A DNA stretch of 64,000 nt from Sporosarcina ureilytica. GTDB taxonomy: Bacteria > Bacillota > Bacilli > Bacillales_A > Planococcaceae. The position numbers were made by a program, and so were the translations under genes. Positions 6,567-29,814 of the stretch are shown here, one piece after another (the stretch's first letter is position 1; each line of letters opens with the position of its first letter). The stretch is from the NCBI RefSeq assembly GCF_001753205.1, contig NZ_CP017560.1:1550001-1614000 (forward strand), written 5' to 3'. The notes below the pieces were generated by a model. It worked only from the letters and a program-made list of their open reading frames with translations. It did no database searches and was not told the DNA's origin.

Positions 6567-6641
6567 ACTGTAAAAAGTCCTTTTTATTAAACTGTCCGTA
6601 AATAAGGGTTCAGTTCACAAAGCCATCGATCACTCTTTTAA

Positions 6642-11088: not shown

Positions 11089-11111
11089 TAAATAAAAAAA
11101 GGTAACAAAGT

Positions 11112-11151
11112 ATTTCCCGATTGTTATTTTCATAAATAACAATCGGGAAAT
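11112..11151 (+). terminator. Intra-operon hairpin between TRAP P and Q genes
   Basis: An 18-bp perfect stem (11112-11129 against 11134-11151; arm begins ATTTCCCGATTG) with a 4-base loop. Only a weak T-rich tail follows. It lies between the binding-protein gene and the membrane-subunit genes, where partial termination or 3'-end protection would give more binding protein than permease. Confidence 0.75.
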
Positions 11152-11304
11152 TATTTAAACGGACTGTGCGAAAATTTAGTGAAACTAATAAATGGCATTA
11201 TTTATTTGAAATGTACACCAGAAAACACTCTACAATTAGGACAGAATAATTACGCTCGTCAGAAGAAAGTAACGACTAAAGTGACGAAGTGGAGGATGTA
11301 TGCG

Positions 11305-11805: not shown

Positions 11806-13085
11806 CAATTGCAGTGTTGTTCATAAGTTTCTTTGCACTCATGTTAATTGGCGTTCCGATTGCGGTCTCTTTAGGGGCATCTACATTATTTACGATGGTA
11901 TTTGCAACTAATCTTCCATTAGGCTCTATTATTACACAGGCGTTTACTTCACTGGATTCATTTTCTCTCTTGGCGATTCCGCTATTTATTTTAGCAGGGG
12001 TTTTAATGAGTCTTGGTGGGGTTTCAAAGCGATTATTACATTTAGCTGATGTGTTGGTAGGTTACTTAGTTGGAGGTTTGGCGCATGGAACGATTCTAGC
12101 TAGTATGTTTTTTGCGGCTATTTCAGGTTCCGGACCCGCAACGGTTGCGGCCATTGGATCGTTCATGATTCCAGCAATGGCAAATAAAGGGTATGATAAA
12201 GGTTTTGCGGCTGCTGTTACAGCAACGGCTGGATCTATCGGTGTTATTATCCCGCCAAGTATTCCTTTTATCATGTTTGGAATCGTTGGTGGCGTATCGA
12301 TTGGCGGACTCTTTTTAGCAGGGATCATTCCAGGTATCTTGGTTGGAGCTGTATTAATGATTGTCTCCTATGGCATTGCAAAAAAGCGAGATTTCCCGAC
12401 AGAAGGAAAATTTCCAACTTTTATGGAAGTGGTAAAAGCATTTAACTATGCGAAATTTGCATTGTTGATTCCTGTCATTATTCTTGGTGGAATATATAGT
12501 GGGTTCTTTTCCCCTACTGAATCCGCTGCAGTAGCATGTATTTATGCGCTTATCATTGGTGTTTTTGTTTATAAAGAAATGAATTTAAGTAAAATTTATG
12601 ATGCATTTTTAGAGGCTACACTCATCACGATTCCAGTGAATATTATTATTAGTTTTTCGATTTCCTTTGCCTATTTACTTAGTATTGAACGAATTCCAAG
12701 AACGATTGCCGAGTTCATTACAGGCATATCTGAAAATATGATCATTACGATGCTCATTATTAGTGCTTTCTTATTTGTAGTTGGAATGTTTATCGATACA
12801 ATTTCTGCGGTGGTCATATTGACACCTATTTTACTGCCTGTTGCAACTGCTGTTGGTATGGAACCAATTCATTTCGGTGTCATTATGATTTGTAACTTGG
12901 CGATTGGATATGTTACTCCGCCACTTGGGGTAAATCTGTTTGTTGCTTCGCATATTAGTAAAGTGTCAATTGAACGGATAAGCCGCGCATTAGTTCCATT
13001 TATTATCGCAATGGTTGTTGTCGTGATTATACTTATTTTAATTCCGCAGTTGTCTCTGTTTATACCTAATATTGCTCTAAATTGA
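11802..13085 (+). CDS. TRAP transporter large membrane subunit (DctM family)
   Basis: Ion-coupled permease subunit of 427 residues with about 12 TM helices. The N-terminus shows the DctM pattern of a hydrophobic helix, GVPIAVSLGAS, then a segment LLAIPLFILAGVLMSLGGVS. SGSGPATVAAIGSFMIPAM and GVIIPPSIPFIMFGIVG are the conserved discontinuous-helix motifs, repeated in the second half as FVVGMFIDTISAVVILTPILLP and NLAIGYVTPPLGVNLFVAS. The start overlaps the DctQ stop by four bases. With the genes upstream it forms a complete TRAP system for Na+- or H+-driven uptake of an organic acid. Confidence 0.94.
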   Translation: MTIAVLFISFFALMLIGVPIAVSLGASTLFTMVFATNLPLGSIITQAFTSLDSFSLLAIPLFILAGVLMSLGGVSKRLLHLADVLVGYLVGGLAHGTILASMFFAAISGSGPATVAAIGSFMIPAMANKGYDKGFAAAVTATAGSIGVIIPPSIPFIMFGIVGGVSIGGLFLAGIIPGILVGAVLMIVSYGIAKKRDFPTEGKFPTFMEVVKAFNYAKFALLIPVIILGGIYSGFFSPTESAAVACIYALIIGVFVYKEMNLSKIYDAFLEATLITIPVNIIISFSISFAYLLSIERIPRTIAEFITGISENMIITMLIISAFLFVVGMFIDTISAVVILTPILLPVATAVGMEPIHFGVIMICNLAIGYVTPPLGVNLFVASHISKVSIERISRALVPFIIAMVVVVIILILIPQLSLFIPNIALN

Positions 13086-13148: not shown

Positions 13149-14249
13149 ATGAGATGGAGAAAATATGTCAAACAAATCGCTCCATATGTACCAGGCAAGT
13201 CAATTGAAGCAGTGAAGAAAGAATTCAATCTAGATGCGGTACTGCGACTTGCCTCTAATGAAAACCCACTCGGCCCATCATCAAAAGCAGTCGACGCCAT
13301 GCAGCAGGCAATGGCGGAATCGCATTTATATCCAGACCCTACGGCGGCTGAATTGAGAGAAAAGCTAGCAACGATTTATGGGGTTCTTCCAGAACAGATT
13401 ATTACTGGAAATGGTGCAGATAATGTTATTTCATTTGTAATTAGTGCGTTTGTAAATGAAGGAGATGAAGTGCTTTATTGTACGCCAACATTCCCAGCCT
13501 ATCGCTCTACAACGCTTTTAATGGGGGGGAAACCTGTTGAAGTACCTTTAACAAAGGAATTGACCTTTGATCTTGATAGCTTAAAAGAAAATATTACAGA
13601 TAAGACAAAACTTATTTTTATTTGTAATCCAAACAATCCAACAGGTACGATTGTTGAATCAAATGCATTGGAACAATTTATTGCCAGTGTTCCTGAACAT
13701 GTCACTGTCATTCTGGATGAGGCGTATATCGAATATGTTCGTAAAGAAAATTATTTAACTGGCATTGATTTTTTCAAGAAGGGCTATCCAGTGATTACGA
13801 TTAGAACATTTTCAAAGTTTTATAGCTTGGCAGGTCTCCGAGTTGGTTATGCAGTTGCATCAGAGGAAATGTTAGCGCCTATGTTACGTCTTCGAGAACC
13901 GTTTGCAGTGAATCGACCAGCGATTGCTGCGGCTGTTGCAACATTGGATGATACGGAATTTACTGAAGATCATTTTGAAATGAATGAAGCGGAAAAACTA
14001 GCCTTATCTGAAAAGATGGAGGAGCTCGGCTTTACCGTCTATCCGTCATCAACGAATTTCTTATTCATCCATATTAAAAGTGACGCACAAGAGTTATTTA
14101 ATGCGTTGTTGAAAAAGGGGATTATTATTCGACCATGTACCGGTTGGGGATATGATGAATATGTCCGAATTTCAATAGGTACGAAAGAACAAAATGAATT
14201 GTTACTGTCCACATTGAAACAATTAGAATCAGTTAAAACTGTTAGATAA
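13149..14249 (+). CDS. HisC-like PLP aminotransferase
   Basis: Fold-type I aminotransferase of 366 residues, close to histidinol-phosphate aminotransferase (HisC/Cobc group). Landmarks are SNENPLGPS at the N-terminus, the glycine-rich TGNGADNVI, NPNNPTGT, DEAYIEY, and the PLP lysine K223 in RTFSKFYSLAGLRVGYA. The C-terminal RISIGTKEQN holds the substrate carboxylate Arg. A HisC for biosynthesis would be expected among his or aro genes. Here it follows a TRAP system, 64 bases after dctM, and precedes a 2-hydroxyacid dehydrogenase and hut genes. I therefore infer a catabolic role, moving the amino group between histidine and imidazolepyruvate or handling another aromatic amino acid. Confidence 0.88.
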   Translation: MRWRKYVKQIAPYVPGKSIEAVKKEFNLDAVLRLASNENPLGPSSKAVDAMQQAMAESHLYPDPTAAELREKLATIYGVLPEQIITGNGADNVISFVISAFVNEGDEVLYCTPTFPAYRSTTLLMGGKPVEVPLTKELTFDLDSLKENITDKTKLIFICNPNNPTGTIVESNALEQFIASVPEHVTVILDEAYIEYVRKENYLTGIDFFKKGYPVITIRTFSKFYSLAGLRVGYAVASEEMLAPMLRLREPFAVNRPAIAAAVATLDDTEFTEDHFEMNEAEKLALSEKMEELGFTVYPSSTNFLFIHIKSDAQELFNALLKKGIIIRPCTGWGYDEYVRISIGTKEQNELLLSTLKQLESVKTVR

Positions 14250-14273
14250 CGTTAATGGGAGGAATGATTTTTC

Positions 14274-15254
14274 ATGGGAAAGAAAAGGGTTTGGATTTTG
14301 GATGATGAGTGGTTTACACATGAATTGGAAAAAGAAATATATACAGAGCATGATATTGAGTTTAAAGTGACAAGAAGTGAATCTTTTAAAAACGACTTTG
14401 AATCATTCGGAAAAGATGCGGACGGAATTGTTGCACAAGTTGGATTTAATTTTGGTGCAGCATACATCTCCCGATTAACAAAATGCAAAATTATCGCCTC
14501 TTCCGGTGTTGGATTTAACCATATTGATTTAAATGCATCCGCGCAAAAAGGGATTTATGTAACGAATATGGCAGATTACTGTATTGGCGAAGTATCAGAT
14601 CATACAATTGCCTTAGCGTTAATTGTTTCTCGTAGACTTCGTGCTTATAATGAACAAGTGAAAAATGGGCAGTGGGATCCGTTAGATACATTACCAATTC
14701 ATCGTCTACAAGGCAGAACAGTAGGACTTTTAGGGTTTGGTCGGATTGCTAAAGAAGTAGCGAAAAAGTTTAAAGTATTTGGTGTGAATGTGATCGCTCA
14801 TGATAAATATGTTCCAGAAGAAGTGTTTACAAAACTCGGGGTCGAATCTGTCACATTGGAAGAATTGCTAGAGAGGTCAAATATTTTAAGTTTACATGTG
14901 CCATTAACGAAAGAAACAGAAGGACTTATTAATTATGAGCGCCTAAAGCAATTACAAAAAGGCTCAATCATCATTAACACGTGCCGAGGCGCAATAATAA
15001 ATGAGGATGATTTAACTCTTGTCATTAAAGAAGGACATATTGCCGGAGCGGGACTGGATGTTTTAGTAGAGGAACCGCCAAATAAGGATTTGGAGCTACT
15101 TCATTTAGATGAAGTGTATGTAACACCACATTCATCTTATGTATCAATTGAATCGGAATATGAACTCCGCTCACGGACAGCTTTAAATGTGATTCGTGCA
15201 ATGGACGGGGAGGTTCCGGAGTTTGTGCAAAATGATGTAAAAGTAAAGGTGTAA
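14274..15254 (+). CDS. D-2-hydroxyacid dehydrogenase
   Basis: NAD-dependent 2-hydroxyacid dehydrogenase (326 residues) that interconverts a 2-oxo acid and its D-2-hydroxy acid. The Rossmann motif reads GLLGFGRIA. The catalytic trio is Arg in INTCRGAIIN, Glu in GLDVLVEEPP, and His in VTPHSSYV. It starts 25 bases after the aminotransferase with a GGGAGG site, so the two are one operon. Together they could turn imidazolelactate into imidazolepyruvate and then histidine, or the reverse. The substrate is inferred from context only; D-lactate-like or phenyllactate-like substrates are also possible. A strong bidirectional terminator follows. Confidence 0.9.
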   Translation: MGKKRVWILDDEWFTHELEKEIYTEHDIEFKVTRSESFKNDFESFGKDADGIVAQVGFNFGAAYISRLTKCKIIASSGVGFNHIDLNASAQKGIYVTNMADYCIGEVSDHTIALALIVSRRLRAYNEQVKNGQWDPLDTLPIHRLQGRTVGLLGFGRIAKEVAKKFKVFGVNVIAHDKYVPEEVFTKLGVESVTLEELLERSNILSLHVPLTKETEGLINYERLKQLQKGSIIINTCRGAIINEDDLTLVIKEGHIAGAGLDVLVEEPPNKDLELLHLDEVYVTPHSSYVSIESEYELRSRTALNVIRAMDGEVPEFVQNDVKVKV

Positions 15255-15269
15255 CAATTTAGTTGCCAT

Positions 15270-15311
15270 AAAAAATGAACTCTTAACATGTAAAATAAGA
15301 GTTCATTTTTT
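15270..15311. terminator. Bidirectional terminator
   Basis: A 16-bp perfect stem (15270-15285 against 15296-15311), A-rich on one side and T-rich on the other, lies between the convergent dehydrogenase and LysR genes and overlaps the LysR stop codon. It suits both directions. Confidence 0.85.
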
Positions 15312-16193
15312 AGTTTTAAAATACGCTTTCGTTCTCGTAATAAATTCTTCCACAACGGGAGGTAAATAACGATTTTTCATATATGCAAGATAAACTGTTC
15401 TTGCTAAGTTACTGTCAGCAATTGTTTTAATTGTCAGTGATGCATGATTGGAAGCAGTAATATAATTTTCTGGAACAATTGTGATACCGAGGCCTTCCTC
15501 AACTAGTGAAAAGGCGGTTTCAAATCGTTCAAATTCAAAGTGAATATTGGGACTAATTCCTGCGTTTCGAAATGCACTTACGATATCTTGACGGGTTTGA
15601 AACCCTTCTTTACCAATAATGAACTTTTCATGCATTAAATCATTCAGTGTGATGTTTTGTTTGTTTTGCAAGGAATGTTCTTTGGGAAACACAGCAACCA
15701 AGTTCTCTTTGTAAATTGGTATCGTAACGATTTCTTTATTGTCGAAATATTGATTAGTAATCGCGAGATGCATTTTATAGTTTTTTAGCGCTAACTCGAC
15801 CTGTTTTAGTCCAAGCACTTCAACTAGTTGAATATGGATATCCGGATTTGATTTGATATAAGATGAGATGACTTTCGGTAACCATGATTTTACAGATTCG
15901 ATTAAGCCAATTTGCAATTCTAGAGGACCGAGATTTTTTAGACGGGACATTTCTTCTCTTACATGTGTAAATTGATTCAGTAAATTTTTAGCTTCTTTAT
16001 ATAAAATTTCGCCCTCTTTGGTTAAAGAGATTTTTCGTGTAGTTCTTTCAATTAAAGTAAGGCCCATGCTTTCTTCTAATTTTTTTATAGCCGAACTTAA
16101 TGATGGTTGGGAAATGTGTAGTTCTTTTGAAGCTTTTGTAAAAGATCCTTTATCAATGAGTGCGGTAAAATAGAGTAACTGTCTTTCATCCAT
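15303..16193 (-). CDS. LysR-family transcriptional regulator
   Basis: LysR-type regulator of 296 residues. The N-terminal winged helix-turn-helix spans about residues 1-60 (YFTALIDKGSFTKASKELH, then SQPSLSSAIKKLEE), followed by the linker helix and a periplasmic-binding-like effector domain from ~90 to the end. It is transcribed away from the RidA gene and the hut genes, sharing a ~210-base intergenic region. LysR proteins normally control the divergent neighbour and respond to a pathway metabolite, so an imidazole acid or urocanate is a likely effector (inference). Confidence 0.93.
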   Translation of the reverse strand: MDERQLLYFTALIDKGSFTKASKELHISQPSLSSAIKKLEESMGLTLIERTTRKISLTKEGEILYKEAKNLLNQFTHVREEMSRLKNLGPLELQIGLIESVKSWLPKVISSYIKSNPDIHIQLVEVLGLKQVELALKNYKMHLAITNQYFDNKEIVTIPIYKENLVAVFPKEHSLQNKQNITLNDLMHEKFIIGKEGFQTRQDIVSAFRNAGISPNIHFEFERFETAFSLVEEGLGITIVPENYITASNHASLTIKTIADSNLARTVYLAYMKNRYLPPVVEEFITRTKAYFKTKK

Positions 16194-16403: not shown

Positions 16404-16862
16404 ATGAGTATATACAAAAGATTACGTGAATTAGAGATTGTTTTACCAACACCCCCTAAACCGGCTGGTCTTTATGTCCCTTGCCGTTTAATGGGGAACG
16501 TACTATATACTTCCGGACAAGATTGCAGAATTGACGGGAAATTGGCTTATGAAGGAAAGTTGGGGAGAGATTTAACCGTTGAACAGGGTTATGATGCCGC
16601 AAGACTGACGATGCTCAATTGTTTGGCAGTGATTGAACAGGAAATCGGTGATTTAAATAGGATTAAACAGATTATCAAATTGTTAAGTTTTGTAAATTCA
16701 ACAGATAGTTTCATAGCGCAACCTTCTGTTATAAATGGGGCCTCCCAAGTTTTGATAGATGTTTTTGGGGAAGCAGGTAAACATGCCCGTACAGCTTTAT
16801 CGGCTAATTCATTACCATTCAATATACCGTTAGAAATTGAAATGATTGTTGAGATAAAATGA
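16404..16862 (+). CDS. RidA/YjgF-family protein
   Basis: Small trimeric RidA-fold protein of 152 residues, of the longer sub-group found near catabolic genes. It starts with KRLRELEIVLPTPPKPAGLYVPCRLMGNVLYTSGQ and has GKLGRDLTVEQGYDAARLTMLNCLAVI in the middle and ANSLPFNIPLEIEMIVEI at the end (each seen in part). The catalytic Arg of true imine deaminases, which lies in a C-terminal R-x-x-V-x-V-x-x-L-P pattern, is at best shifted here (HARTALSANSLP). RidA proteins hydrolyse reactive enamines and imines made by PLP enzymes. Its place between an aminotransferase operon and hut genes suggests clearing an imine from imidazole metabolism; the exact reaction is unknown. Confidence 0.82.
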   Translation: MSIYKRLRELEIVLPTPPKPAGLYVPCRLMGNVLYTSGQDCRIDGKLAYEGKLGRDLTVEQGYDAARLTMLNCLAVIEQEIGDLNRIKQIIKLLSFVNSTDSFIAQPSVINGASQVLIDVFGEAGKHARTALSANSLPFNIPLEIEMIVEIK

Positions 16863-16990: not shown

Positions 16991-17953
16991 ATGTATTATA
17001 ATTGGACAGGACGAGTTGATAAAAATGGAAAAGGTAAGCGCATTCATCAAATCGTTCGAAATATAGATATAAATGAATTAAAGAGAAAAGAACAACGAAC
17101 TATTAGTTTTGTTGGTTTTGAATGTGATGAAGGTGTTAAAAGAAACCAAGGTAGATTAGGTGCTTCTAAGGCACCAAATGAAATTCGGAAACTACTTGCA
17201 AGCATTCCTTATCACAACGAAAATAAAAGTCTTATAGATGTAGGTAATGTACGTTGCATTAACAATGATTTGGAAGAAGCACAAGCACAATTAGGACATC
17301 ATGTAGCCAAATTATTGGAAAATAACTACACGCCAATTATTTTAGGTGGGGGTCATGAAACATTTTATGGTCATTACTTAGGGGCAAGAAAGGCACTAGG
17401 TAAAGATAAGAAAATCGGCATGATAAATTTAGATGCACATTTTGACTTACGACTGGATGAGCAGTCATCATCTGGAACGATGTTTCGTCAAATTTTGGAA
17501 GATGATGAAAAAGCGGAATATTTATGCATCGGAATACAGGAATTAGGGAATACAGAACAACTGTTTTTAACGGCAGATGAATTAAATGTACAATATATAT
17601 TGGAACAGGATATTCAGCCGCTTGAAAATACTTTTGCTAAAATAAGTGAATTCTCACAAGAACAAGATTATATTATTTATACGATTTGTACAGATGTAAT
17701 CAATCAAGCGTATGCCCCGGGTGTAAGTGCTCCGGCTCCATTTGGAATTGAGCCGCAACTTGTAAGAGCGATTACAAAACATATTGTACAGCAAAATAAT
17801 TTTTTAAGTATGGATATTTCTGAAGTTAATCCTACGCTCGATATAGCAGATAAAACGAGTAGACTCATTAGTTATGTGATTGGAGAAACTTTAACACATT
17901 TAAATGAAAAAGAAAAAACCTTTTATGATATAGGAGTGGAGAACACGGTATGA
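16991..17953 (+). CDS. hutG: Formimidoylglutamase
   Basis: Ureohydrolase-family enzyme (320 residues) that splits N-formimino-L-glutamate into glutamate and formamide, the last step of the Hut pathway. Metal-binding motifs are visible as [10 protein letters not shown] (H122), NLDAHFDLR (D148, H150, D152), and a later segment [12 protein letters not shown] in place of the usual S-x-D-x-D-x-x-D-P. In that last motif only the central Asp of the expected acids is kept. The GVSAPAPFG segment is typical of HutG. The gene leads the hutG-hutH-hutI run, overlapping the first possible hutH start. Assignment is supported by both sequence and neighbours. Confidence 0.9.
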
Positions 17954-18012
17954 TTCAGCTTGGTGTGAAAGCAAACTCACTTGCAGAACCGATTAGAAAT
18001 GGGGGGGAAGAT

Positions 18013-19503
18013 ATGATCGAACTTACTGGGGATACGCTAACGATAAACCAATTAAAAGAAATATTATATGGAAATCAGAGAGTAAAAGTATCCGAAGAGA
18101 GCATGGAAAAAGTAAAGGCAAGTAGGGCGGCAGTAGATAAAATAGTAAAGAGTGCAGAAACGGTTTACGGAATTAACACGGGGTTTGGACAATTTAGTGA
18201 TGTTAAAATTGAGGAAGAAAATGTTGCAGACCTACAATTGAATTTAATACGTTCCCATGCTTGCGGTGTAGGTGAACCCTTTCCCCGTATTGTTTCGAAG
18301 GCGATGATGGTTTTACGCTTAAATGCTATTGTGAAAGGTTATTCAGGAGTCCGTATTGAAGTAGTCGAGTTATTGAAACAACTTATTAATTGTAATGTTA
18401 TTCCTGTTATTCCACAGCAAGGATCATTAGGGGCTTCAGGGGATTTAGCGCCACTTGCACATTTAGCGCTAGTGTTAATCGGGGAAGGGCAAGTTTTTAC
18501 AGAATCCGGTGAAGTTACTGATTCGTTAGAAGTATTGCAAAAACATAATCTACAACCGATTACACTACAAGCTAAAGAGGGATTAGCACTTATCAATGGT
18601 ACCCAGTCAATGACGGCAATGGGAGTTGTCAACTATATTGCATCTGAACAACTGGCCTTAGACAGTGAATGGATTAGTGCAATGACAATTGAATCACTAG
18701 AAGGGATTACTGACGCATTTTTACCAGAAACTCATGAAGTTCGTGGATATCCACAACAGACAGCAGTTGCTAAAAGGATGCTTAATTGGTTAGAGGGCAG
18801 TAATTTAACAACACGTCAAGGGGAGAAACGAGTACAAGATGCGTATTCGTTAAGGTGTATCCCTCAAGTACATGGGGCAACTTGGCAAGTATTGGATTAC
18901 GTGAAAGAAAAATTAGAAATTGAAATAAATGCTGCGACAGATAACCCGCTTATTTTTGATAATGGCAATACGGTAATATCTGGCGGTAATTTTCATGGAC
19001 AACCCATTGCATTTGCGATGGACTTTTTAAAAATAGGTGTCGCGGAGCTTGCGAATATTTCAGAGCGACGGACTGAAAGACTCGTAAATTCGCAGCTTAA
19101 TGAGGGTTTACCAGCATTTTTAAGTCCAGAGCCAGGTCTACAATCAGGTGCAATGATTATGCAATATGTTGCGGCTTCATTAGTATCTGAAAATAAAACG
19201 TTGGCCCATCCAGCAAGTGTCGATTCTATCCCATCATCTGCAAATCAAGAGGACCATGTTAGTATGGGGACGATCGGGTCAAGGCATGCAGCTGATATTA
19301 TCAAAAATAGTCAGAGAGTTTTAGCTATTGAGGCTATTTGTGCGATGCAAGCACTTGAATATAGAGGCGTGGAAAAAGCGGCCGAAAAAACTAGGGAAAA
19401 ATGGAAGACGATAAATCATATCGTTCCAAGCATTACAGAAGATCGAGCTTTCCATAAAGATATTGAAAACTTATACAATTATTTAAAAGAGATTAAGATT
19501 TAA
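18013..19503 (+). CDS. hutH: Histidine ammonia-lyase
   Basis: Converts L-histidine to trans-urocanate and ammonia, the first Hut step. The MIO cofactor triad Ala-Ser-Gly is at residues 141-143 in [17 protein letters not shown], and the catalytic Tyr at 52 in [24 protein letters not shown] and the C-terminal [12 protein letters not shown] are all present. The frame is open from an ATG at 17950 that overlaps the hutG stop, but ATG 18013 directly follows a GGGGGGGA ribosome binding site and gives 496 residues, in line with the usual ~500-510. Part of a hutGHI run. Confidence 0.95.
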
Positions 19504-19524
19504 CTATTTCAAGGAGGAATGAAC

Positions 19525-20817
19525 ATGTCAAATGTATTATATATAAAAAATGCATCAGAACTTATTACAGTTAGGGGGCATTCTGAGAAACCAGCTAAAA
19601 AAACAGCGATGAGTGAAATTGGAATTATTGAAAACGGTTGTGTCTTGTCGAAAGACGGTAAAATTGTAGCAGTTGGAACAGATGAAGAAATTCGTAACGA
19701 GCATCAGGACCTAGTAAATCTAGCAGAGGTAATCGATGCAACGGGTAAAGTTGTGACGCCTGGACTTGTAGATCCTCATACACATATCGTTTATGCAGGA
19801 ACGCGTGAAAATGAATACGCAATGCGTTTAGAAGGTAAAACATATATGGAAATCATGAATGCAGGTGGCGGAATTCATGCAACGACACGTGCAACACAAC
19901 AGGCGAGTTTTGATGAACTTTATGAACAATCAAAAGCACGGTTAGATAAAATGTTGCTGGGTGGAATTACTACGATTGAAGCAAAAAGCGGTTACGGTCT
20001 AACACTGGAAGATGAATTAAAACAGTTAGAAGTTGCTAAGAAATTAAATGAAGATCATCAAATCGATTTGATCTCAACATTTATGGGTGCACATGCAGTC
20101 CCGTTGGAGTATAAAGATAATCCGGAAGCATTTATTGATATCGTTATTAACGAGATGTTACCGGTAGTTGCGGAAAAAAACCTAGCTGTATTTAATGATG
20201 TGTTTTGCGAAAGAGGTGTATTTACGCCAGAACAGTCAAAACGAATTTTAGAAGCTGGTAAGAAATACGGCTTAAAGCCAAAGATCCATGCTGATGAAAT
20301 TGAATCATACAGCGGAGCAGAAATGGCAGCAGAAGTTAAGGCTGTTTCAGCAGAGCATTTATTAAGAGCTTCTGATGAAGGGATTAAAGCAATGGCGGAA
20401 AATGACGTGATTGGCGTATTACTGCCAGGAACAGCTTTCTTCTTAATGGCTGATTATGCGGAAGCTCGTAAAATGATTGACGCAGGAATGGCGATCGCTC
20501 TATCTACTGATGCGAATCCAGGGTCCTCTCCAACCCTTTCATTACAGTTTATTATGAACTTAGGTTGTTTAGAAATGGGAATGACACCGGAAGAGGTCAT
20601 TACAGCAACAACAATTAACGCAGCCCATGCAATTGATGCGGCAGATCGTATCGGAAGTATCGAGGTTGGTAAAGATGCGGATTTCACATTGTTTGATGTT
20701 AAAAACCATTTAATGCTTTCGTATCAATATGGCATGAATCATACACATACGGTTGTTAAAAAAGGAAACGTAGTTGTATCGGATGGACATATCATAAAGT
20801 CAGCGGCTGTTTACTAA
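19525..20817 (+). CDS. hutI: Imidazolonepropionase
   Basis: Metal-dependent amidohydrolase (430 residues) that opens 4-imidazolone-5-propionate to N-formimino-L-glutamate. The metal-binding HxH is H85-T-H87 in PGLVDPHTHIVYAGTRENEY, and further motifs are GAHAVP, KIHADE, and STDANPGSSPT with the catalytic Asp. The ATG at 19525 lies seven bases after AAGGAGG (19511-19517); the in-frame ATG at 19519 is too close. It follows hutH by about 20 bases and is followed by a 130-base gap with no clear terminator before the first urocanase gene. Confidence 0.95.
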   Translation: MSNVLYIKNASELITVRGHSEKPAKKTAMSEIGIIENGCVLSKDGKIVAVGTDEEIRNEHQDLVNLAEVIDATGKVVTPGLVDPHTHIVYAGTRENEYAMRLEGKTYMEIMNAGGGIHATTRATQQASFDELYEQSKARLDKMLLGGITTIEAKSGYGLTLEDELKQLEVAKKLNEDHQIDLISTFMGAHAVPLEYKDNPEAFIDIVINEMLPVVAEKNLAVFNDVFCERGVFTPEQSKRILEAGKKYGLKPKIHADEIESYSGAEMAAEVKAVSAEHLLRASDEGIKAMAENDVIGVLLPGTAFFLMADYAEARKMIDAGMAIALSTDANPGSSPTLSLQFIMNLGCLEMGMTPEEVITATTINAAHAIDAADRIGSIEVGKDADFTLFDVKNHLMLSYQYGMNHTHTVVKKGNVVVSDGHIIKSAAVY

Positions 20818-20950: not shown

Positions 20951-22591
20951 ATGTCAAATGTGTTAATTTCACCAACAGGGCCGGAAATTAGCTGTCAGAA
21001 TTGGGAAATAGAAGGATTATTACGGCTTTTTCTTAATAGTATAGATCCTCGTGTCGCGGAAAGTAGTAAAGATTTAATTGTTTACGGCGGCCGGGGAAAA
21101 GCTGCGCGAAATTACGAAGCGGTGCAGGCAATCATTGATGAGTTGCAAAATCTAGCCACGGATGAAACTTTACTAATCCAGTCTGGGAAGCCGGTTGGGA
21201 AATTTAAAACATACGAAAGTTCGCCGAGAATTGTGAATGCTTCATCTGTCCTTGTACCACATTGGTCGACAGATAACTATTTCAGTGAATTAATTGATAA
21301 AGGATTAATGATGTATGGTCAATCTACGGCGGCTTCTTGGGCATATATAGGCGTTCAAGGCGTTTTGCAAGGAACGTTTGAGACGATGGGTGAAATTGCC
21401 AGGAAGCATTTCAATCATACATTACAAGGGAAAATCGTATTAACTTCAGGGTTAGGCGGCATGAGTGCTGCCCAACCCTTATCTGTTACGATGCATGGTG
21501 GCGTTTGTATTGTTGTTGAAATTTCGGAAGAGAAAATCGATCAGCGGTTAAAAAATAATTATTGCGATATTAAAGTGAATACGCTTGAAGAGGCTATTGT
21601 ATTAGCGAAAGAAGCAGCAAATGCCAAAAAGCCGTTAGCAATTGCCTTAATTGGAAACGTCTCTGAAGTATATAGAGAAGCGCTTAAAGCGAATTTTATT
21701 CCAGATATTGTAACAGACCAGACTTCCGCTCATGATTTACACATGGGATATATTCCTAATGGTTTGTCATTGGTGCAAGCGGAGACGTTACGTAAGAAAA
21801 ATACAGCCCATTATTATGAACTCATTAAAGAATCACTAATTTTGCATGTAGAAGCAATGGTCAATTTTAAGGAACGCGGTGCAATCGTATTTGAATATGG
21901 AAATAATTTAAGAAACCAAGCGTATCAGGCTGGTTATGAGCAAGCGTTTCAATTACCTGGTTTTGCTAGTGACTATTTACGGCCATTATATTGTGAAGGT
22001 AGGGGGCCGTGTCGTTGGATTGCATTATCAGGAAACCCGGAAGATATTTATAAAATTGATGAAATTGTTTTGGAAACTTTTAACCATGATAAACGTGTTG
22101 CTAGATGGATTCAATTTGTTCAAGAAAAAATATTTTTTAATGGATTACCCGCTAGAACTTGTTGGTTAGATTATGAAGAGCGAGAGCAAATCGGTGCTTT
22201 GATTAATGAAATGGTGAAATCCGGAGAACTTTCTGCGCCAATTGCTATAACAAGAGATCATTCTGAAGGAAGTACAATGGCAGCCCCGTTCAGGGAAACT
22301 GAAAATATGCTTGATGGTAGTGATGTTGTTGCAGATTGGCCGATTTTAAATGCGATGTTAAATGCAAGCGCCGGAGCATCGATGGTCAGTATCCAAAATG
22401 GTGGGGGAGTCGGGATTGGTAACTCAGTACATTCTGGGATGACCGTCATTGCTGATGGAAGTGATGAAGCATCAGAACGACTAAGAAAGATATTAGTGGT
22501 TGACCCGGGAATGAGTATTATTCGACATGCTGATGCGGGGTATGAACAGGCGAAAAAGGCCTTAGATAAAATAAAACTAGGTAAGAGGTGA
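20951..22591 (+). CDS. Divergent urocanase-family hydratase (HutU paralogue 1)
   Basis: Urocanate hydratase family, 546 residues, full length. Like the second copy it keeps the NAD-binding glycines (GLGGMSAAQPL) and the Cys of the active-site region (C404 in GLPARTCWL), plus the NNLR and DHSEG-type segments. It differs at positions almost fixed in urocanases: the ICWLGYGER motif is [27 protein letters not shown] is TRDHSEGSTMAAPFRETE, and [13 protein letters not shown] becomes SIQNGGGVGIGNS with Gln482-Asn483 in place of His-His. It may act on a modified urocanate, such as a thio- or methyl-urocanate, or be losing function. The reading frame is intact and the ribosome binding site good, which argues for selection. 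Confidence 0.85.
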   Translation: MSNVLISPTGPEISCQNWEIEGLLRLFLNSIDPRVAESSKDLIVYGGRGKAARNYEAVQAIIDELQNLATDETLLIQSGKPVGKFKTYESSPRIVNASSVLVPHWSTDNYFSELIDKGLMMYGQSTAASWAYIGVQGVLQGTFETMGEIARKHFNHTLQGKIVLTSGLGGMSAAQPLSVTMHGGVCIVVEISEEKIDQRLKNNYCDIKVNTLEEAIVLAKEAANAKKPLAIALIGNVSEVYREALKANFIPDIVTDQTSAHDLHMGYIPNGLSLVQAETLRKKNTAHYYELIKESLILHVEAMVNFKERGAIVFEYGNNLRNQAYQAGYEQAFQLPGFASDYLRPLYCEGRGPCRWIALSGNPEDIYKIDEIVLETFNHDKRVARWIQFVQEKIFFNGLPARTCWLDYEEREQIGALINEMVKSGELSAPIAITRDHSEGSTMAAPFRETENMLDGSDVVADWPILNAMLNASAGASMVSIQNGGGVGIGNSVHSGMTVIADGSDEASERLRKILVVDPGMSIIRHADAGYEQAKKALDKIKLGKR

Positions 22592-22597
22592 GACACC

Positions 22598-24178
22598 ATG
22601 ATTTCATTAGGAATTTACAATCACCGAATCCTTTATGATGAACTGTCAGATTACGAAAATTTTCAAATTGAGATTCTTGAGACACTTACTGATGTAATGG
22701 ACTTCTCAAAATACGACTTGGTCATTCTGAATATTTCCGATATCAAAGAGGAACAGTATTCTTACTTCCTGAACCAATTAAAACAGCTAGATATGTCAAA
22801 AGTTATCTTTATAAACAAAGCCTTTTCTATAGAACAAGTGAAAAAGTTAATGTTTTTAGGAGCGTACGATTGTCTTACACTCCCTGTACATATCCCTGAT
22901 TTACTGAGAATCCTGACAGATGCCTTTGCAGACATAAAAAGAGCAAAACGCAGAAGGCAGAAAAAAGAAACATATAAAATTAATTCAATTAGAGCAAGTT
23001 TAGCCTATGATCTTTTACATGGAAATATAAAAAATGCGAAAGAAATATGGGAACGCAGCCAGTTGGCAAATCTATCACTGATCCCAAATACTGTTCTATT
23101 ATTACGAATTGACCACTTTACCAAATTAGTGGAGAACAAAGGGGAACTATGGAAAAAATCATTACGAGAAGAAGTGCTTCATGCGATGCAAGGTTGTGAG
23201 CTGAACTATGAATCATTAACAGTTCTCGTGAATCAACAGAAATTTGCCATACTATTATCTTTACCAGTCCAATTAGAGGAAAAGAAGTATAAGCAGCTTG
23301 CAATTGAATATGCAGAAAAAATCCGTACACAAATTAATAATGAAACAGACTACACGGTTACAATTGGAATTGGAAATTATTACGAAGATGCACGTAACCT
23401 TCATCTTTCTTATCAAGAAAGTGAACAAGCGCAAAGCCATCGACTATTTCAAGAAGAAAACGCTATCATCCATAAAGAAGAGCTGGATTATTTCGATACG
23501 CCAAAATATCACGAATACAAAATTCAAATTCAAGAAATGACTAATAAATTTCTACTTGGCGATATTACCGCTGTACATACAATTTGGGAAGAAATTTATC
23601 AATCTGTCGCTACCAAACGTAATTTTCAGCCTGAAGACTTTCGTCTGCAAGTGTTAGATTTATTATTCTCACTGACAAAAACAGCAATCCAAAATGGTGC
23701 AAATCCAAAACAGATGATGCCATTACAAATAAAACATGCCAAAGAACTTCATGACATCGAATCAATAGCCGAGATTGATGCGTGGATGACAGATATTATT
23801 AATGAGTATATCCACTATGTGAATGAAGGTCATAATGAAGAAGTGCTGAAATCTGTACAACAAGGATTGCAATTTATTGAAGATTATTTTCATGAAGATA
23901 TCGGCCTGGATTTGATTGCTGATAAGGTCGATTTAAGTCCAAATTATTTGAGTGCGATCTTTAAGCAAACGACAGGAACTTCGTTTATTGAGTATTTAAC
24001 AAACTTAAGGGTGGAAAAAGCAAAAGAGAAACTACAAGATTTAAATTTGGCTGTCTCTGAAATTGCTGAATCAGTTGGATACAGCTCTTCCCAGTATTTT
24101 AGTAGAGTTTTTAAGAGAAATACCGGGATGACACCAAGTGCCTACCGAAATAGTATCTTAACTACTAGTAAAATATAA
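22598..24178 (+). CDS. AraC-family regulator with degenerate receiver domain
   Basis: YesN-like regulator of 526 residues. The N-terminus (~1-115) has a receiver-like fold pattern, but the phosphorylation site reads YDLVILNIS with Asn45 where Asp is expected, and the acidic pair near residue 8 is missing (LGIYNHR). A long middle domain follows, and the last ~100 residues are a double AraC helix-turn-helix (IGLDLIADKVDLSPNYLSAIFK, IAESVGYSSSQYFSRVFKRNTGMTPS, each seen in part). It starts seven bases after the paralogue-1 urocanase gene. No histidine kinase is nearby, so it probably senses a ligand or partner without phosphorylation and controls the hut genes. Confidence 0.88.
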   Translation: MISLGIYNHRILYDELSDYENFQIEILETLTDVMDFSKYDLVILNISDIKEEQYSYFLNQLKQLDMSKVIFINKAFSIEQVKKLMFLGAYDCLTLPVHIPDLLRILTDAFADIKRAKRRRQKKETYKINSIRASLAYDLLHGNIKNAKEIWERSQLANLSLIPNTVLLLRIDHFTKLVENKGELWKKSLREEVLHAMQGCELNYESLTVLVNQQKFAILLSLPVQLEEKKYKQLAIEYAEKIRTQINNETDYTVTIGIGNYYEDARNLHLSYQESEQAQSHRLFQEENAIIHKEELDYFDTPKYHEYKIQIQEMTNKFLLGDITAVHTIWEEIYQSVATKRNFQPEDFRLQVLDLLFSLTKTAIQNGANPKQMMPLQIKHAKELHDIESIAEIDAWMTDIINEYIHYVNEGHNEEVLKSVQQGLQFIEDYFHEDIGLDLIADKVDLSPNYLSAIFKQTTGTSFIEYLTNLRVEKAKEKLQDLNLAVSEIAESVGYSSSQYFSRVFKRNTGMTPSAYRNSILTTSKI

Positions 24179-24262: not shown

Positions 24263-24278
24263 TAAGGGGGAAACGGTG

Positions 24279-25613
24279 ATGAAAGCTGAAAATATTACAG
24301 AAACAACGATGGCACATAGTTATATAAAATTTTCAAATATATTTAAATTAGTTTTTTATAGTGCTGTTGGCGCTTTTATGTTTTTTATTCCGATAACAAT
24401 CGACGGTAAATCGTCTATCATGCTCGATCATATCGTAACATTTTTACGAGGTGGAATACCTCCGTTTGTCATACATTTCTACATTGCAATTATTTTAGTT
24501 GTGGGAGCAACTTACCCATTTGTTACTCGGACTTGGAACAAAACGATCACATCTACGATTATGTCTTTCCTAAAAGTTGTTGGACTGATACTTGGACTCA
24601 TGCTTATTTTAGGTGTAGGTCCAGCCTGGATGTTTCAAGAAGATATGGGTCCGTTTATACTGAATGCTTTAGTTACTCCTGTTAGTATACTCGTTCCTGT
24701 AGGCGCTCTTTTTTTAGCCTTACTTGTCGGGTATGGATTACTCGAATTTATCGGAATATTAATGCAACCGGTCATGCGCCCGATTTTCAGAACACCTGGA
24801 AGGTCAGCAATCGATGCGGTCGCCTCGTTTGTCGGAAGTTATTCGATTGGTCTTTTGGTTACGAACCGTATTTATAATGAGGGGAAATATACGAAAAGAG
24901 AAGCGATAATTGTTGCGACTGGATTTTCAACTGTATCGGCGACGTTTATGGTTGTCATTGCGAACACGCTTGATATCATGTCGATTTGGAACTTTTATTT
25001 CTGGACATCTTTAGTCATCACATTTACGGTGACGGCTATTACAACCCGTTTATGGCCAATCAGTAGTACACCGGATACGTATGTTAATGGAGAAGGAGAT
25101 CCGGAATTAGTCATCGAAAAGGATCGTTTAAAAACAGCGTGGAATGAAGCACTTAAAGTCGCGGATGATAGTGAACCATTATACCGCTATATTCTTGTCA
25201 GTTTAAAAGAAGGTATTCAAATGGTCATGAGTATTTTGCCGACAATTCTTTCGGTAGGTCTTCTTGGCTTAGTATTGGCAACCTATACGCCGATCTTTGA
25301 TTTATTAGGCTATATTTTCTATCCGATTACGTACCTATTAAAAATACCCGAGCCTTTACTAGTCGCTAAAGCAAGTGCGATTTCCATTACAGAAATCTTC
25401 TTGCCATCTTTATTAGTTGTCGGAGCTCCGTTAATGACGAAATATATTGTAGCTGTCTTATCTGTATCGTCAATTTTATTTTTCTCAGCTTCCATTCCAA
25501 GTATGTTGGCGACAGATATACCTTTCAGTGTACCGAAATTAGTCGTTATTTGGTTTATAAGAGTTGTTTTAACATTGATGATTACTACTCCAGTTGCGTA
25601 CCTTTTCTTATAG
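24279..25613 (+). CDS. YjiH-family membrane protein (nucleoside-recognition/Gate domains)
   Basis: Integral membrane protein of 444 residues with about 10-11 TM helices and Gate-type segments (GRSAIDAVASFVGSYSIGLLVTNR and FLPSLLVVGAPLMTKYIVAVLSVSSILF, in part). The ATG at 24279 lies eight bases after AAGGGGG; a GTG at 24276 is closer. YjiH proteins have no settled function, but the Gate domain occurs in nucleoside transporters. Flanked by urocanase, CoA-transferase and acyl-CoA dehydrogenase genes and lying under a cre site, it is a good candidate for import of histidine, urocanate or a related imidazole acid (inference). Confidence 0.82.
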   Translation: MKAENITETTMAHSYIKFSNIFKLVFYSAVGAFMFFIPITIDGKSSIMLDHIVTFLRGGIPPFVIHFYIAIILVVGATYPFVTRTWNKTITSTIMSFLKVVGLILGLMLILGVGPAWMFQEDMGPFILNALVTPVSILVPVGALFLALLVGYGLLEFIGILMQPVMRPIFRTPGRSAIDAVASFVGSYSIGLLVTNRIYNEGKYTKREAIIVATGFSTVSATFMVVIANTLDIMSIWNFYFWTSLVITFTVTAITTRLWPISSTPDTYVNGEGDPELVIEKDRLKTAWNEALKVADDSEPLYRYILVSLKEGIQMVMSILPTILSVGLLGLVLATYTPIFDLLGYIFYPITYLLKIPEPLLVAKASAISITEIFLPSLLVVGAPLMTKYIVAVLSVSSILFFSASIPSMLATDIPFSVPKLVVIWFIRVVLTLMITTPVAYLFL

Positions 25614-25750: not shown

Positions 25751-26896
25751 ATGAAGCAACCTTTAGAAGGAATAAAAGTTTTGGACTTTTCAAGAGTTTT
25801 AGCTGGTCCCTACTGTACGATGTTGTTAGCAGATATGGGAGCAGAAGTTATTAAAATTGAAAGGCCGGAAACAGGAGATGATACTCGACATTTTGGTCCG
25901 TTCCAAAATGGTGAAAGCGGTTATTTCATGTTTTTGAACCGCGGTAAAAAAAGTGTTGAGTTGAACTTGAAAGAAGCTTCCGATCGTGAAAGTTTAATGG
26001 CGTTAATTAAAGAAGCAGATGTTATTGTAGAAAATTTCCGCCCTGGTGTTATGAAAGGGTTAGGATTAGATTATGAAACTTTGAAAGAAGTTAATGAAGG
26101 TTTAGTCTATTGTTCGATTTCAGGTTTTGGTCAGTATGGACCTTATAGTAAGCGACCTGCCTATGATATCGTTGCACAAGCTATGGGGGGAATTGCTAGT
26201 ATCACTGGCTATCCAGACAATCCGCCTACTAGATCTGGTGCATCACTTGGAGATATGAGTGCAGCGCTTTATGCAGCATATGGCGTGATGGTTGCTCTTT
26301 TCCATAGGGAACGAACAGGCATTGGTCAAGAAATCGATGTTGCGATGGTCGACTCAATTTTCGCATTGCTTGAACATAATGTCATGCGTTACACATCAGA
26401 AGGCGTTACTCCTGAGCGAGTTGGAAATCGCCATCCGATTAGTGCGCCGTTTGATGTATATGAAAGTAAAGAGGGACATGTAGTCATAGCAACGGCGAAC
26501 GAGTCTTTATTCGCTAGACTTTGTAAGGTGATGGATAAAGAAGAGTTGTTAGAGGACGCACGTTTTGTGACAGATATTGAGCGTGGGAAAAATGAAAGCG
26601 AATTAAAAGTAATTATTGAAGAGTGGCTGTCACAATATACTGCTGAAGAAGCAGTAAATCTTATTAATGAGGCTGGAGTACCTAGCTCAACAATTTTAAA
26701 TATTGCTGAAATCAGTGAAAGTGATCATGTAAAAGAAAGAGAAATGTTGCTTGAGATTGAGCATCCAATTGCAGGTAAGACACGTATTCCAGGTAACCCT
26801 GTTAAATTATCAAAAACACCTATACAAGTTAAGTCACCAAGCCCAGCTTTAGGTGAACATAACGACATGATTAAACAGAAATTTAAAGCAAAGTGA
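25751..26896 (+). CDS. CaiB/BaiF-family (class III) CoA-transferase
   Basis: Moves CoA from an acyl-CoA to a free carboxylic acid. The 381-residue protein starts with the typical PLEGIKVLDFSRVLAGPY and has VENFRPGVMKGLGLDY, SISGFGQYGPY, and the catalytic Asp168 in SLGDMSAALYAAYG. The ribosome binding site is GGGGAGGGG. Eleven bases separate it from the acyl-CoA dehydrogenase gene, so the two form an operon. CaiB with CaiA in carnitine metabolism, and FldA with AcdA in phenylpropionate formation, show the same pairing. In this hut context the natural acid pair would be imidazolepropionate and urocanate (inference). Confidence 0.9.
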   Translation: MKQPLEGIKVLDFSRVLAGPYCTMLLADMGAEVIKIERPETGDDTRHFGPFQNGESGYFMFLNRGKKSVELNLKEASDRESLMALIKEADVIVENFRPGVMKGLGLDYETLKEVNEGLVYCSISGFGQYGPYSKRPAYDIVAQAMGGIASITGYPDNPPTRSGASLGDMSAALYAAYGVMVALFHRERTGIGQEIDVAMVDSIFALLEHNVMRYTSEGVTPERVGNRHPISAPFDVYESKEGHVVIATANESLFARLCKVMDKEELLEDARFVTDIERGKNESELKVIIEEWLSQYTAEEAVNLINEAGVPSSTILNIAEISESDHVKEREMLLEIEHPIAGKTRIPGNPVKLSKTPIQVKSPSPALGEHNDMIKQKFKAK

Positions 26897-26906
26897 GTGA
26901 TCAACT

Positions 26907-28046
26907 ATGAATTTTGATTTTACAGAGGAACAAAAAAGTATTCGAGATATGGTCAGAAATTTCACAAGAGATGTCATTGCTCCTAAAGCAGAAGAAATTG
27001 ACCGTGACAATCGTTTTCCTAAAGAACATATTTCAAAGATGGGGGAACTTGGTCTGTTAGGAATTGCGTATCCAGAGGAAGACGGTGGCGTTGGCGCTGA
27101 TGCTATTTCTGAGGCAATTGCTGTTGAAGAAATTACATATGGCTGTGCTGCAACGGGTTCAATCTTGACTGCCCATTATTTAGGGATAGATGGACTTTAT
27201 CTTGCGTCAAATAAAGAACAGCGAGAAAAGTATTTAGTTCCAGGTTGCCAAGGTGAAAAGTTATTTGCCTTTTGTTTGACAGAACCGATTGGAGGCACGG
27301 ACGTTTCTTCCATGAAAACAACTGCAAAACGTGATGGAGATACATATGTGCTGAATGGTTCGAAAATCTTTATCACAAATGGTTCTTATGCAGATACACT
27401 AGTTGTTTATGCAAAAACAGATACAGCAAAAGGCAGTAAAGGAATCAGTGCATTCATCGTTGAAAAAGATACGCCTGGTTTATCATTTGGAGCTGGCGAT
27501 GACAAAATGGGAATTCGCGGTGCAACAACAGACGAAGTCATTTTTGAAAACTGTGTCATTCCGGCAGAAAACCTTGTTGGAGAAGAAGGAGAAGGCTTCA
27601 AAATTGCGATGCAAGTAGTTGACCGCGGAAGAATCGGAATTGCTGCAATGGCCATTGGTTTATCCCAAGCTGCAATCGATGAAGCGGTAAACTATTCGAA
27701 GGAACGAGAAGCATTCGGTCAGACAATTAACAAGTTCCAAGGACTTCAATGGATGATGGCAGAGATGGAGACGGATCTTGCTGTCGGCCGATTGTACACA
27801 TATTTTACAGCTAGTTTAAAAGATAAAGAAGGATATAGATTGTCAAAAGAAGCATCAATTGCAAAATTATTTACCTCTGAAGCATCTAATAGAATTGTAA
27901 ATAAAGCCGTTCAAATCCATGGCGGTTATGGCTATATGAAAGAGTATACAGTTGAAAGACTGTACAGAGATCAGCGAATTCTAGAAATCTTTGAAGGAAC
28001 ATCACAAGTGCAGAAAATGGTTATTGCTCATCATTTATTGAAATAA
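26907..28046 (+). CDS. Acyl-CoA dehydrogenase
   Basis: FAD-dependent acyl-CoA dehydrogenase of 379 residues. FAD- and substrate-binding motifs are LTEPIGGTDVSSMKTTA, KIFITNG, and QIHGGYGY. The catalytic Glu is E363 in IFEGTSQVQ, the position used by short- and medium-chain members. It follows the CoA-transferase gene by eleven bases with a weak ribosome binding site, so translation may be coupled. It would place a 2,3-double bond in an acyl-CoA. If the substrate is imidazolepropionyl-CoA the product is urocanyl-CoA, which the neighbouring CoA-transferase could release as urocanate. A general fatty or branched acyl-CoA substrate is the alternative. Confidence 0.92.
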   Translation: MNFDFTEEQKSIRDMVRNFTRDVIAPKAEEIDRDNRFPKEHISKMGELGLLGIAYPEEDGGVGADAISEAIAVEEITYGCAATGSILTAHYLGIDGLYLASNKEQREKYLVPGCQGEKLFAFCLTEPIGGTDVSSMKTTAKRDGDTYVLNGSKIFITNGSYADTLVVYAKTDTAKGSKGISAFIVEKDTPGLSFGAGDDKMGIRGATTDEVIFENCVIPAENLVGEEGEGFKIAMQVVDRGRIGIAAMAIGLSQAAIDEAVNYSKEREAFGQTINKFQGLQWMMAEMETDLAVGRLYTYFTASLKDKEGYRLSKEASIAKLFTSEASNRIVNKAVQIHGGYGYMKEYTVERLYRDQRILEIFEGTSQVQKMVIAHHLLK

Positions 28047-28152: not shown

Positions 28153-29814
28153 ATGAGTCTAAAAGTTCAAGAAATCCGTGCCCCTCGTGGGAATAAGTTA
28201 AATTGTAAAGGTTGGGTCCAGGAAGCCGCATTGCGTATGCTTATGAATAACCTCGATCCAGAAGTAGCTGAAAATCCAGATGATCTTGTTGTATACGGTG
28301 GAATCGGTAAAGCAGCTAGAGACTGGGAAAGTTACCATAAAATCATTGAAGAATTAAAAGAATTAGAGAATGATGAAACATTATTAATCCAATCAGGTAA
28401 GCCTGTTGGGAAATTCAGAACACATGAGAACTCACCACGTGTATTAATCGCTAACTCGAATTTAGTTCCTGCATATGCGAACTGGGAGCATTTTAATGAG
28501 TTAGATAAAGAAGGACTCATGATGTATGGACAAATGACAGCAGGAAGCTGGATTTACATCGGAGCACAAGGAATTCTCCAAGGTACTTACTTAAGTTTTG
28601 TTGAAGCAGGAAAGAAACTTTACGGAACACCTGACTTAACAGGTAAATTTATTTTAACTGGTGGTATGGGTGGAATGAGTGGAGCTCAGCCACTAGCAGG
28701 TAAAATGGCAAAAGCAGTTATTTTAGTGGTTGAAGTTGATCGTAAGAGAATCGAAAGAAAAATCAAAGAAAAATACTGTGACTATATTTTTGAAGATCTT
28801 GACGAAGCATTAGATAAAGTCAAAGAATTGACTGCAAAAGGCGAGCCAGCTTCAATCGGTTTAGTTGGAAACTGTGCAGATGTTTTCCAAGAAATTCATG
28901 ACCGGGGTATTGTACCAGATATCGTTACAGACCAAACGAGTGCACATGACCCAAGAAACGGTTATGTTCCAAGCGGCATGACGTATGAAGAAGCTCTAAA
29001 ACTAAGAGAAGAAGATCCAGATAAATATGAGGAACTTTCACTTGAAACAATTGCGAATCATGTAAGAGCAATGTTAGCTCTACAAGAAGCTGGATCAGAA
29101 ACGTTTGACTATGGAAATAACATTAGACATTATGCAAAAGTACAAGGTGTAGAAAATGCGTTTGACTTCCCAGGATTCGTTCCGGCATATCTACGTCCAC
29201 TGTTCTGTGAAGGAAACGGTCCTTTCCGTTGGGCTGCATTATCAGGAGAGCCTGAAGATATTTATAAAACAGACCAATTAGCAAAAGAAATGTTTGCTGA
29301 TAATGAAGCGTTAGTAAACTGGATTGACATGGCTCAGAAAATGGTTGCATGGCAAGGTTTACCAGCAAGAATTTGTTGGTTAGGTTACGGTGAGCGTCAT
29401 AAGTTTGCCCTAAAAGTAAATGAAATGGTTGCAAGTGGTGAACTAAGTGCACCTATTGTATTCGGACGTGATCATTTGGACAGTGGCTCAGTTGCTTCAC
29501 CAAACCGTGAGACGGAATCAATGAAAGATGGCAGTGATGCAGTAGCAGACTGGCCGATCTTAAATGCACTAGTAAACACTGCTGGTGGAGCGAGTTGGGT
29601 AAGTTTACACCACGGTGGTGGGGTTGGAATGGGATATTCAATTCATGCTGGTCAAGTATTAGTTGCTGATGGAACGGAAGAAGCAGCTGAAAAGATCAAA
29701 CGTGTCCTTGTGTCTGACCCGGGAATGGGCGTTATTAGACACGCCGATGCAGGCTATCAGAGAGCGATGGATGTTGCTGAAGAGCGCGGCGTTCATATTC
29801 CAATGAAGAAGTAA
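28153..29814 (+). CDS. hutU: Urocanate hydratase (canonical)
   Basis: NAD-dependent enzyme that turns urocanate into imidazolonepropionate. The 553-residue protein keeps the whole family signature: [17 protein letters not shown], the active-site Cys408 in [32 protein letters not shown], and the His486-His487 pair in [17 protein letters not shown]. The start ATG 28153 follows AAAGGAGA; an overlapping two-codon ATG-AAA-TGA precedes it. It ends the island with a strong terminator. It is the gene that should supply the main urocanase activity, in contrast to the divergent copy at 20951-22591. Confidence 0.96.

Follow-up and report, generated by a model that had tools for sequence, protein, structure and literature searches.

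HutU2 (20951..22591, plus strand) is encoded in the 64,000-nucleotide window of Sporosarcina ureilytica DNA analyzed here and belongs to a separate, selectively maintained urocanase subfamily whose pocket, as judged from its sequence, has been rebuilt. On balance, we favor HutU2 as an active NAD+-dependent hydratase of a non-standard urocanate that works beside a normal urocanase, HutU1 (28153..29814, plus strand). It is a maintained variant within a known enzyme family and does not amount to a new kind of system.

The HutU2 open reading frame is intact, comprises 546 codons (546 aa), starts with ATG, and is preceded by AAGGAG. The protein spans the Urocanase_N, Urocanase, and Urocanase_C Pfam domains over nearly its full length, which places it in the urocanase-fold family, and it scores 773 bits with the TIGR01228 (hutU) profile, whose cut-off is 375. 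An AlphaFold2 model (pLDDT 85.5) matches solved urocanase structures in Foldseek (TM 0.92-0.95), which confirms the urocanase fold. HutU2 is 51% identical to HutU1, in which a profile match and a residue table reveal fully canonical active-site motifs. The first-pass annotation of this DNA, made from the letters alone, had reported two full-length urocanase genes, with the canonical signatures kept in the one at 28153. Both points hold, and the genome has exactly these two urocanases. The motifs that it listed for the divergent gene are also present as described: Y45-G46-G47 (the NAD-site glycines), Cys404, Gln482-Asn483, TCWLDYEER (403-411), and TRDHSEGSTMAAPF (434-447).

The same annotation spoke of an "island". 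However, GC and GC3 of the HutU2 region equal those of the surrounding genes, so the hut genes here are not compositionally foreign, and they form an ordinary hut cluster with a recurrent accessory module. Upstream of HutU2, on the plus strand, are genes for a RidA/YjgF-family protein (16404..16862), HutG (formimidoylglutamase, 16991..17953), HutH (histidine ammonia-lyase, 17950..19503, the only copy in the genome), and HutI (imidazolonepropionase, 19519..20817). Downstream on the same strand are an AraC-type regulator (22598..24178), a YjiH-like "Gate" membrane protein that is a probable transporter and whose homologs recur beside hut genes (24276..25613), and two genes of the accessory module that precede HutU1, encoding a class III (CaiB-type) CoA-transferase (25751..26896) and an acyl-CoA dehydrogenase that keeps the catalytic Glu motif EIFEGT (26907..28046). 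Farther upstream are plus-strand genes for a DctP-DctQ-DctM TRAP transporter (10027..13085), which recurs beside HutU2 in Sporosarcina and Pseudogracilibacillus, and for a HisC-like aminotransferase (13149..14249) and a D-2-hydroxyacid dehydrogenase (14274..15254) that are recurrent in the module. A LysR-type regulator (15303..16193, minus strand) recurs beside the module in near relatives.

Thirteen HutU2 members (61-100% identity) emerged in Bacilli from a scan of 84,980 species genomes, combined with searches among sampled relatives. They come from Sporosarcina, Pseudogracilibacillus, Oceanobacillus, Neobacillus, Shouchella, and three further Bacilli genomes. The subfamily is rare, being present in 5 of 261 genomes of the order, and is about 49-56% identical to canonical urocanases. 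In the family tree, which had been proposed as a check and included 12 of the members, HutU2 forms one clade (support 100/100) with a long stem. A 98/98 split puts this clade with the canonical enzymes and apart from the thiourocanate-type ones. Its attachment point relative to canonical enzymes is unsure (440 of 1,000 bootstraps). A sister group is found in three Clostridia (loci L174, at 8815-10455, L183, and L184). A local duplication of HutU1 as the origin of HutU2 is rather unlikely: the topology test does not strictly reject it (p-AU 0.054), but a one-residue insertion of HutU1 is absent from HutU2.

Frames are intact in all 13 members, and dN/dS among HutU2 genes is 0.02-0.10 for pairs without saturated synonymous change. 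These values refute decay and, together with the new clade-invariant motifs, rule out a decaying duplicate. We therefore give almost no weight to a nonfunctional HutU2, even though its branches are longer than those of HutU1, which implies faster evolution, and a conserved His and Trp have been lost. The argument that an intact frame with a good ribosome binding site speaks against simple decay is thus borne out, and the tree is accompanied by no excess of nonsynonymous change.

HutU1 belongs to a distinct clade of its own (79-94% identity). Of 12 HutU2 genomes checked, 11 also carry a member of this clade, and the two clades branch in the same order. At locus L009, HutU2 is kept and the HutU1 clade is absent. 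An ordinary hutU is additionally present elsewhere in three Sporosarcina and two other HutU2 genomes, and HutU2 is never the sole urocanase in any genome examined for this (12 from Bacilli and 3 from Clostridia). An obligate HutU2-HutU1 heteromer is disfavored because of L009 and because Clostridia pair the HutU2 sister with a quite different urocanase.

The differences from canonical urocanases cluster in the active site. Of 280 positions that are invariant in canonical sequences, 19 are fixed to a different residue throughout the 12 HutU2 sequences compared. Fourteen of these 19 fall inside active-site motif windows (around 120-150, 340-359, 428-449, and 474-499, drawn with the motifs in view), where 5.0 are expected by sampling (p about 5e-5). 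A window-independent test of the spacing of the 19 differences also indicates clustering (p = 0.002). The changed active site first proposed for this gene is thus beyond chance. The canonical, urocanate-specific set M125, G128, I131, F354, V432, G434, D439, W478, and H482 is changed in 13 of 13 HutU2 members. The differences from canonical HutU include M125S/A, I131A, F354C, V432A, G434T, L438S, D439E, W478M, and H482Q. The loss of a His-His pair at 482-483, which had been taken as a mark of the gene, stands in part: residue 482 is Gln in every member, whereas residue 483 is Asn in seven, His in five, and Gln in one, so that Asn483 is not clade-wide.

Other positions are conserved. R355, T126, Q124, and R448 are retained in 13 of 13 members, and Cys404 is kept too. 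At the tested positions of the NAD+ site, which we take to be Y45-G46-G47, Q124, E190, QTSAH (257-261), and Y316 (HAMAP MF_00577), all members keep these residues except for G47S in one. According to their PDB titles, 1w1u ("inactive urocanase") and 8q9u (R450A) carry Arg-to-Ala changes at the R448 position. Position 404 is Gly in thiourocanate-type hydratases, and in a HutU1 relative (L173, 10874-12565) Phe replaces the supposed active-site Cys (RIFWLGYGER). Cys at this position is therefore not essential to the family, and its retention in HutU2 says little for or against a changed function.

HutU2 could also be simply an isozyme that acts on trans-urocanate but differs in its kinetics, since it keeps all NAD-site and essential Arg positions, is located in hut operons, and exceeds the hutU equivalog cut-off. 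However, about 27 near-invariant canonical positions are altered in every HutU2 member, including D439E, W478M, and H482Q, and HutU2 never replaces the canonical urocanase. Its pocket motif is conserved inside the clade, yet unlike the canonical one. Such an isozyme is therefore an unlikely explanation.

Four substitutions argue for a changed substrate. A432, Ser or Thr at 434, a residue other than Trp at 478, and T498 are present in 13 of 13 HutU2 members, the one Clostridial sister tested, 2 of 2 thiourocanate hydratases, 1 of 1 S-methylthiourocanate hydratase, and 4 of 4 urocanases of a parallel Sporosarcina operon (the "45%" enzymes), but in 0 of 132 canonical or HutU1 sequences. Because these substitutions are common to every non-canonical-substrate hydratase examined, a non-standard urocanate is favored, which agrees with the earlier suggestion of a modified urocanate. 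Long FtcD-type urocanases, read by eye, also have Leu478, but they retain Gly434; position 434 is thus the cleanest marker. Against our preferred reading, the four residues might, given the unsure placement of the clade, be an ancestral state and not reflect a change of substrate, L478 is not confined to enzymes with altered substrates in view of the FtcD-type urocanases, and catalysis could suffer from D439E, which alters an otherwise invariant Asp. In its favor, HutU2 is kept without HutU1 (L009) and without the CoA module (L007, L011, and Clostridia).

Respecialization in HutU2 operons is, as far as residue conservation indicates, limited to the urocanase step. S. ureilytica HutH and HutI keep 98.5% and 100%, respectively, of canonical near-invariant positions. 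Across HutU2 operons, the two proteins keep 97-100%, and no column is changed group-wide. Pathways that handle chemically altered histidines show changes along their entire length, whereas here the change is confined to the urocanase; most simply, HutU2 would feed the ordinary Hut intermediate. In the proposed mechanism, NAD+ would add to the substrate ring as in urocanase, water would then be added, and imidazolonepropionate or a product acceptable to HutI would be released. Because only the urocanase step is doubled, we infer that this product is 4-imidazolone-5-propionate or another compound that HutI accepts. Our guess is that another form of urocanate, the cis isomer first, is likelier than a permanently ring-modified one, because the latter would require changed downstream enzymes.

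The parallel operon is found in Sporosarcina (L144, L145, L146, and L148). It is histidine-like and encodes the 45%-identical urocanase, a YjiH transporter, a diverged HutI (42%), an M20 peptidase, a Na+/H+ antiporter-family protein, and a diverged HutH (54%), with a sigma-54 regulator nearby. Its HutI keeps 72-74% and its HutH 91-93% of near-invariant positions. In L144, near-identical copies of the urocanase (5965-7686 and 9862-11583) flank the sigma-54 regulator, a recent duplication. The operon is possibly a route for Ntau-methylhistidine degradation, in which the M20 peptidase might cleave a dipeptide to free methylhistidine. Bacterial degradation of Ntau-methylhistidine has been reported (Beliaeva et al. 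2022, ACS Chem Biol, as cited in PMC11432326).

HutU2 might likewise hydrate N-methylurocanate or another ring-substituted urocanate, which HutH would produce from a modified histidine or the cell would take up. This is a sub-case of the non-standard urocanate hydratase, with a different substrate and product. The change of His482 to Gln is common only to HutU2 and the "45%" enzyme, which sits with its own HutH and HutI, as expected of a dedicated modified-histidine pathway. Also, M125S/A, I131A, F354C, L438S, and W478M all shrink side chains clade-wide. However, HutH and HutI of HutU2 operons are fully canonical; neither a diverged ammonia-lyase nor a diverged imidazolonepropionase accompanies HutU2, and genes for demethylation or of the methylformamide type are absent near it. 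HutU2 also keeps R448, Q124, and C404; two of these (R448 and Q124) are missing from the "45%" enzyme, and none is left in the thiourocanate type. We regard N-methylurocanate as the main rival candidate, although a doubtful one.

For the non-standard urocanate hydratase that we prefer, cis-urocanate is our leading guess at the substrate, and somewhat over a third of our confidence in that hydratase rests on it. It would yield the same product, and only its bent side chain would have to be fitted; several bulky residues are replaced by small ones. With cis-urocanate, the product would join the normal Hut pathway, so that only the urocanase step would need to be doubled. More specifically, we tentatively suggest that HutU2 could be a dedicated cis-urocanate enzyme, either a hydratase or an isomerase acting via a reversible NAD adduct, and the first of its kind, although we would not bet on it. 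Metabolism of cis-urocanate has been reported for skin commensals (Patra et al. 2025, as summarized in PMC12287992). However, Clostridia would hardly be expected to consume a UV photoproduct. If cis-urocanate is correct, these bacteria could use an isomer that canonical urocanase handles poorly.

The AraC-type regulator begins 6 bp downstream of HutU2 and has a GGDEF_2-like domain, an AraC helix-turn-helix and, by eye, a degenerate receiver-like N-terminus. Homologs directly follow HutU2, within about 50 bp, in 13 of 13 Bacilli and 3 of 3 Clostridial loci, even where the neighboring true urocanase is of another subfamily. This adjacency raises the idea that HutU2, instead of serving as a pathway enzyme, senses a ligand and acts on the regulator as a "trigger enzyme". 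We consider this quite improbable. A pure sensor role is weakened because locus L062 has no HutU2, yet a homolog of the AraC regulator lies next to its canonical hutU. A regulator occupies the equivalent place in other hut operons as well, and HutU2 keeps all cofactor and essential Arg residues.

Bacilli loci are found in two orders, one with CoA-transferase, acyl-CoA dehydrogenase, HutU1, HutU2, and AraC, and the other with HutU2 and AraC, followed at a distance by CoA-transferase, dehydrogenase, and HutU1. Often they also include TRAP or other transporters, the HisC-like aminotransferase, and the D-2-hydroxyacid dehydrogenase. CoA-transferase and acyl-CoA dehydrogenase genes lie beside urocanases at 25751-28046, in L006 (15115-21466, with EtfAB), and in L142 (5420-15122, with an Fe-S CCG protein). 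The pair may interconvert imidazolepropionate and urocanate through a CoA loop that resembles the CaiA/CaiB or caffeyl-CoA reductase type. The aminotransferase and D-2-hydroxyacid dehydrogenase (13149-15254), beside the TRAP transporter and hut genes, suggest that an imidazole 2-hydroxy acid, for example imidazolelactate, is imported and converted. Degradation of imidazolyl-lactate and imidazolylpropionate has been described (Coote and Hassall 1973, as cited in PMC3953581).

Perhaps HutU2 acts specifically in imidazolepropionate or imidazolelactate use together with these four enzymes, because the CoA-transferase-dehydrogenase pair is beside HutU2 in most Bacilli loci, the HisC-like aminotransferase and D-2-hydroxyacid dehydrogenase occur in seven, and EtfAB adjoins one. 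However, neither the L007 nor the L011 genome contains a close homolog of the CoA pair, and Clostridial operons lack it, yet HutU2 or its sister is kept; an obligate partnership with the module is therefore disfavored. Moreover, dehydrogenation should yield plain urocanate, and HutU1 is enough for that. We judge this role to be rather unlikely.

The Clostridial operon comprises HutH, a transporter, the HutU2-like gene, AraC, a long true urocanase, FtcD, and HutI; HutH was not seen on the L184 stretch. A third urocanase in one such operon (L174, 11756-13399) has an open frame, but its NAD-binding YGG stretch is deleted and its essential Arg is Gly, and it is probably dead. One in-frame stop interrupts the hutH match in each of two HutU2 genomes, L011 (TAG, G456:C15:26934-28433) and L004 (TAA, G457:C2:37051-38526), so these genomes may lack a working histidase. 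In Shouchella (L011, 13275-15871), the genes right after HutU2 and AraC encode an ErtE-like carbamoylase and a deaminase of the TRZ/ATZ family, perhaps as an alternative formimidoylglutamate or hydantoinpropionate branch.

HutU2 thus represents a urocanase subfamily that has so far gone unnoticed. Because HutU2 and its Clostridial sister exceed the hutU cut-off, they are annotated as plain HutU. The change of G434 to Ser or Thr, with V432A, loss of W478, and V498T, provides a sequence test that separates canonical urocanases from altered-urocanate hydratases. The subfamily also points to an assayable question, namely which other urocanate-like compound histidine-degrading bacteria consume. If this compound is cis-urocanate, an immunosuppressive skin photoproduct, its bacterial degradation would gain a defined enzyme.

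Compared with canonical HutU (TIGR01228; PDB 2fkn, 1x87, 1uwk, and 7jfz), HutU2 has the same fold, three Pfam domains, NAD residues, R355, R448, and Cys404, at 49-55% identity, but it differs in the 27 changed near-invariant positions and in always being an additional copy. With thiourocanate hydratase of ergothioneine breakdown (NF058530; PDB 7ned), HutU2 shares A432, Ser/Thr434, Leu/Met478, T498, and the cofactor. However, Q124, G46/G47, Y316, C404, and R448 are altered in 7ned and kept in HutU2, which has none of the thiourocanate signatures G46A/G47A, Q124G, Y316N, C404G, and R448I. S-methylthiourocanate hydratase (NF058531; PDB 8q9v and 8q9u) shares A432, T434, the loss of Trp478, T498, and A128, but it has Gln131 where HutU2 has Ala131. 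Q124G, C404G, and the G46/G47 changes are common to both sulfur-type hydratases, and R448I is characteristic of the thiourocanate type; HutU2 has none of them. HutU2 scores 614 bits with NF058530 (cut-off 930) and 619 bits with NF058531 (cut-off 880). No ergothionase, desulfurase, or Ert gene (ErtD or ErtE) was recognized beside it. As a positive control for that context, Sporosarcina locus L147 (6983-15749) has a complete-looking ergothioneine-use operon with a thiourocanate hydratase above cut-off, a thiohydantoin desulfurase, a BCCT transporter, a lyase, an ErtD-like protein, and ErtE. Profile scores, residues, and gene context therefore rule out the thiourocanate and S-methyl-thiourocanate activities that had been named as possible for HutU2.

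The "45%" urocanase has A432, Ser/Thr434, Leu/Met478, T498, Q482, A128, and F143 in common with HutU2, but it has lost R448 and Q124, has its own diverged HutH and HutI, and is only 42-45% identical. The Clostridial sister is closer (54-56% identity), although it retains G128, F354, and D439 and is found without the CoA-transferase-dehydrogenase module. It scores well above the hutU cut-off and, like HutU2, has S125, A131, A432, T434, Leu/Met478, and T498, the same kind of AraC regulator next to it, and another true urocanase beside it.
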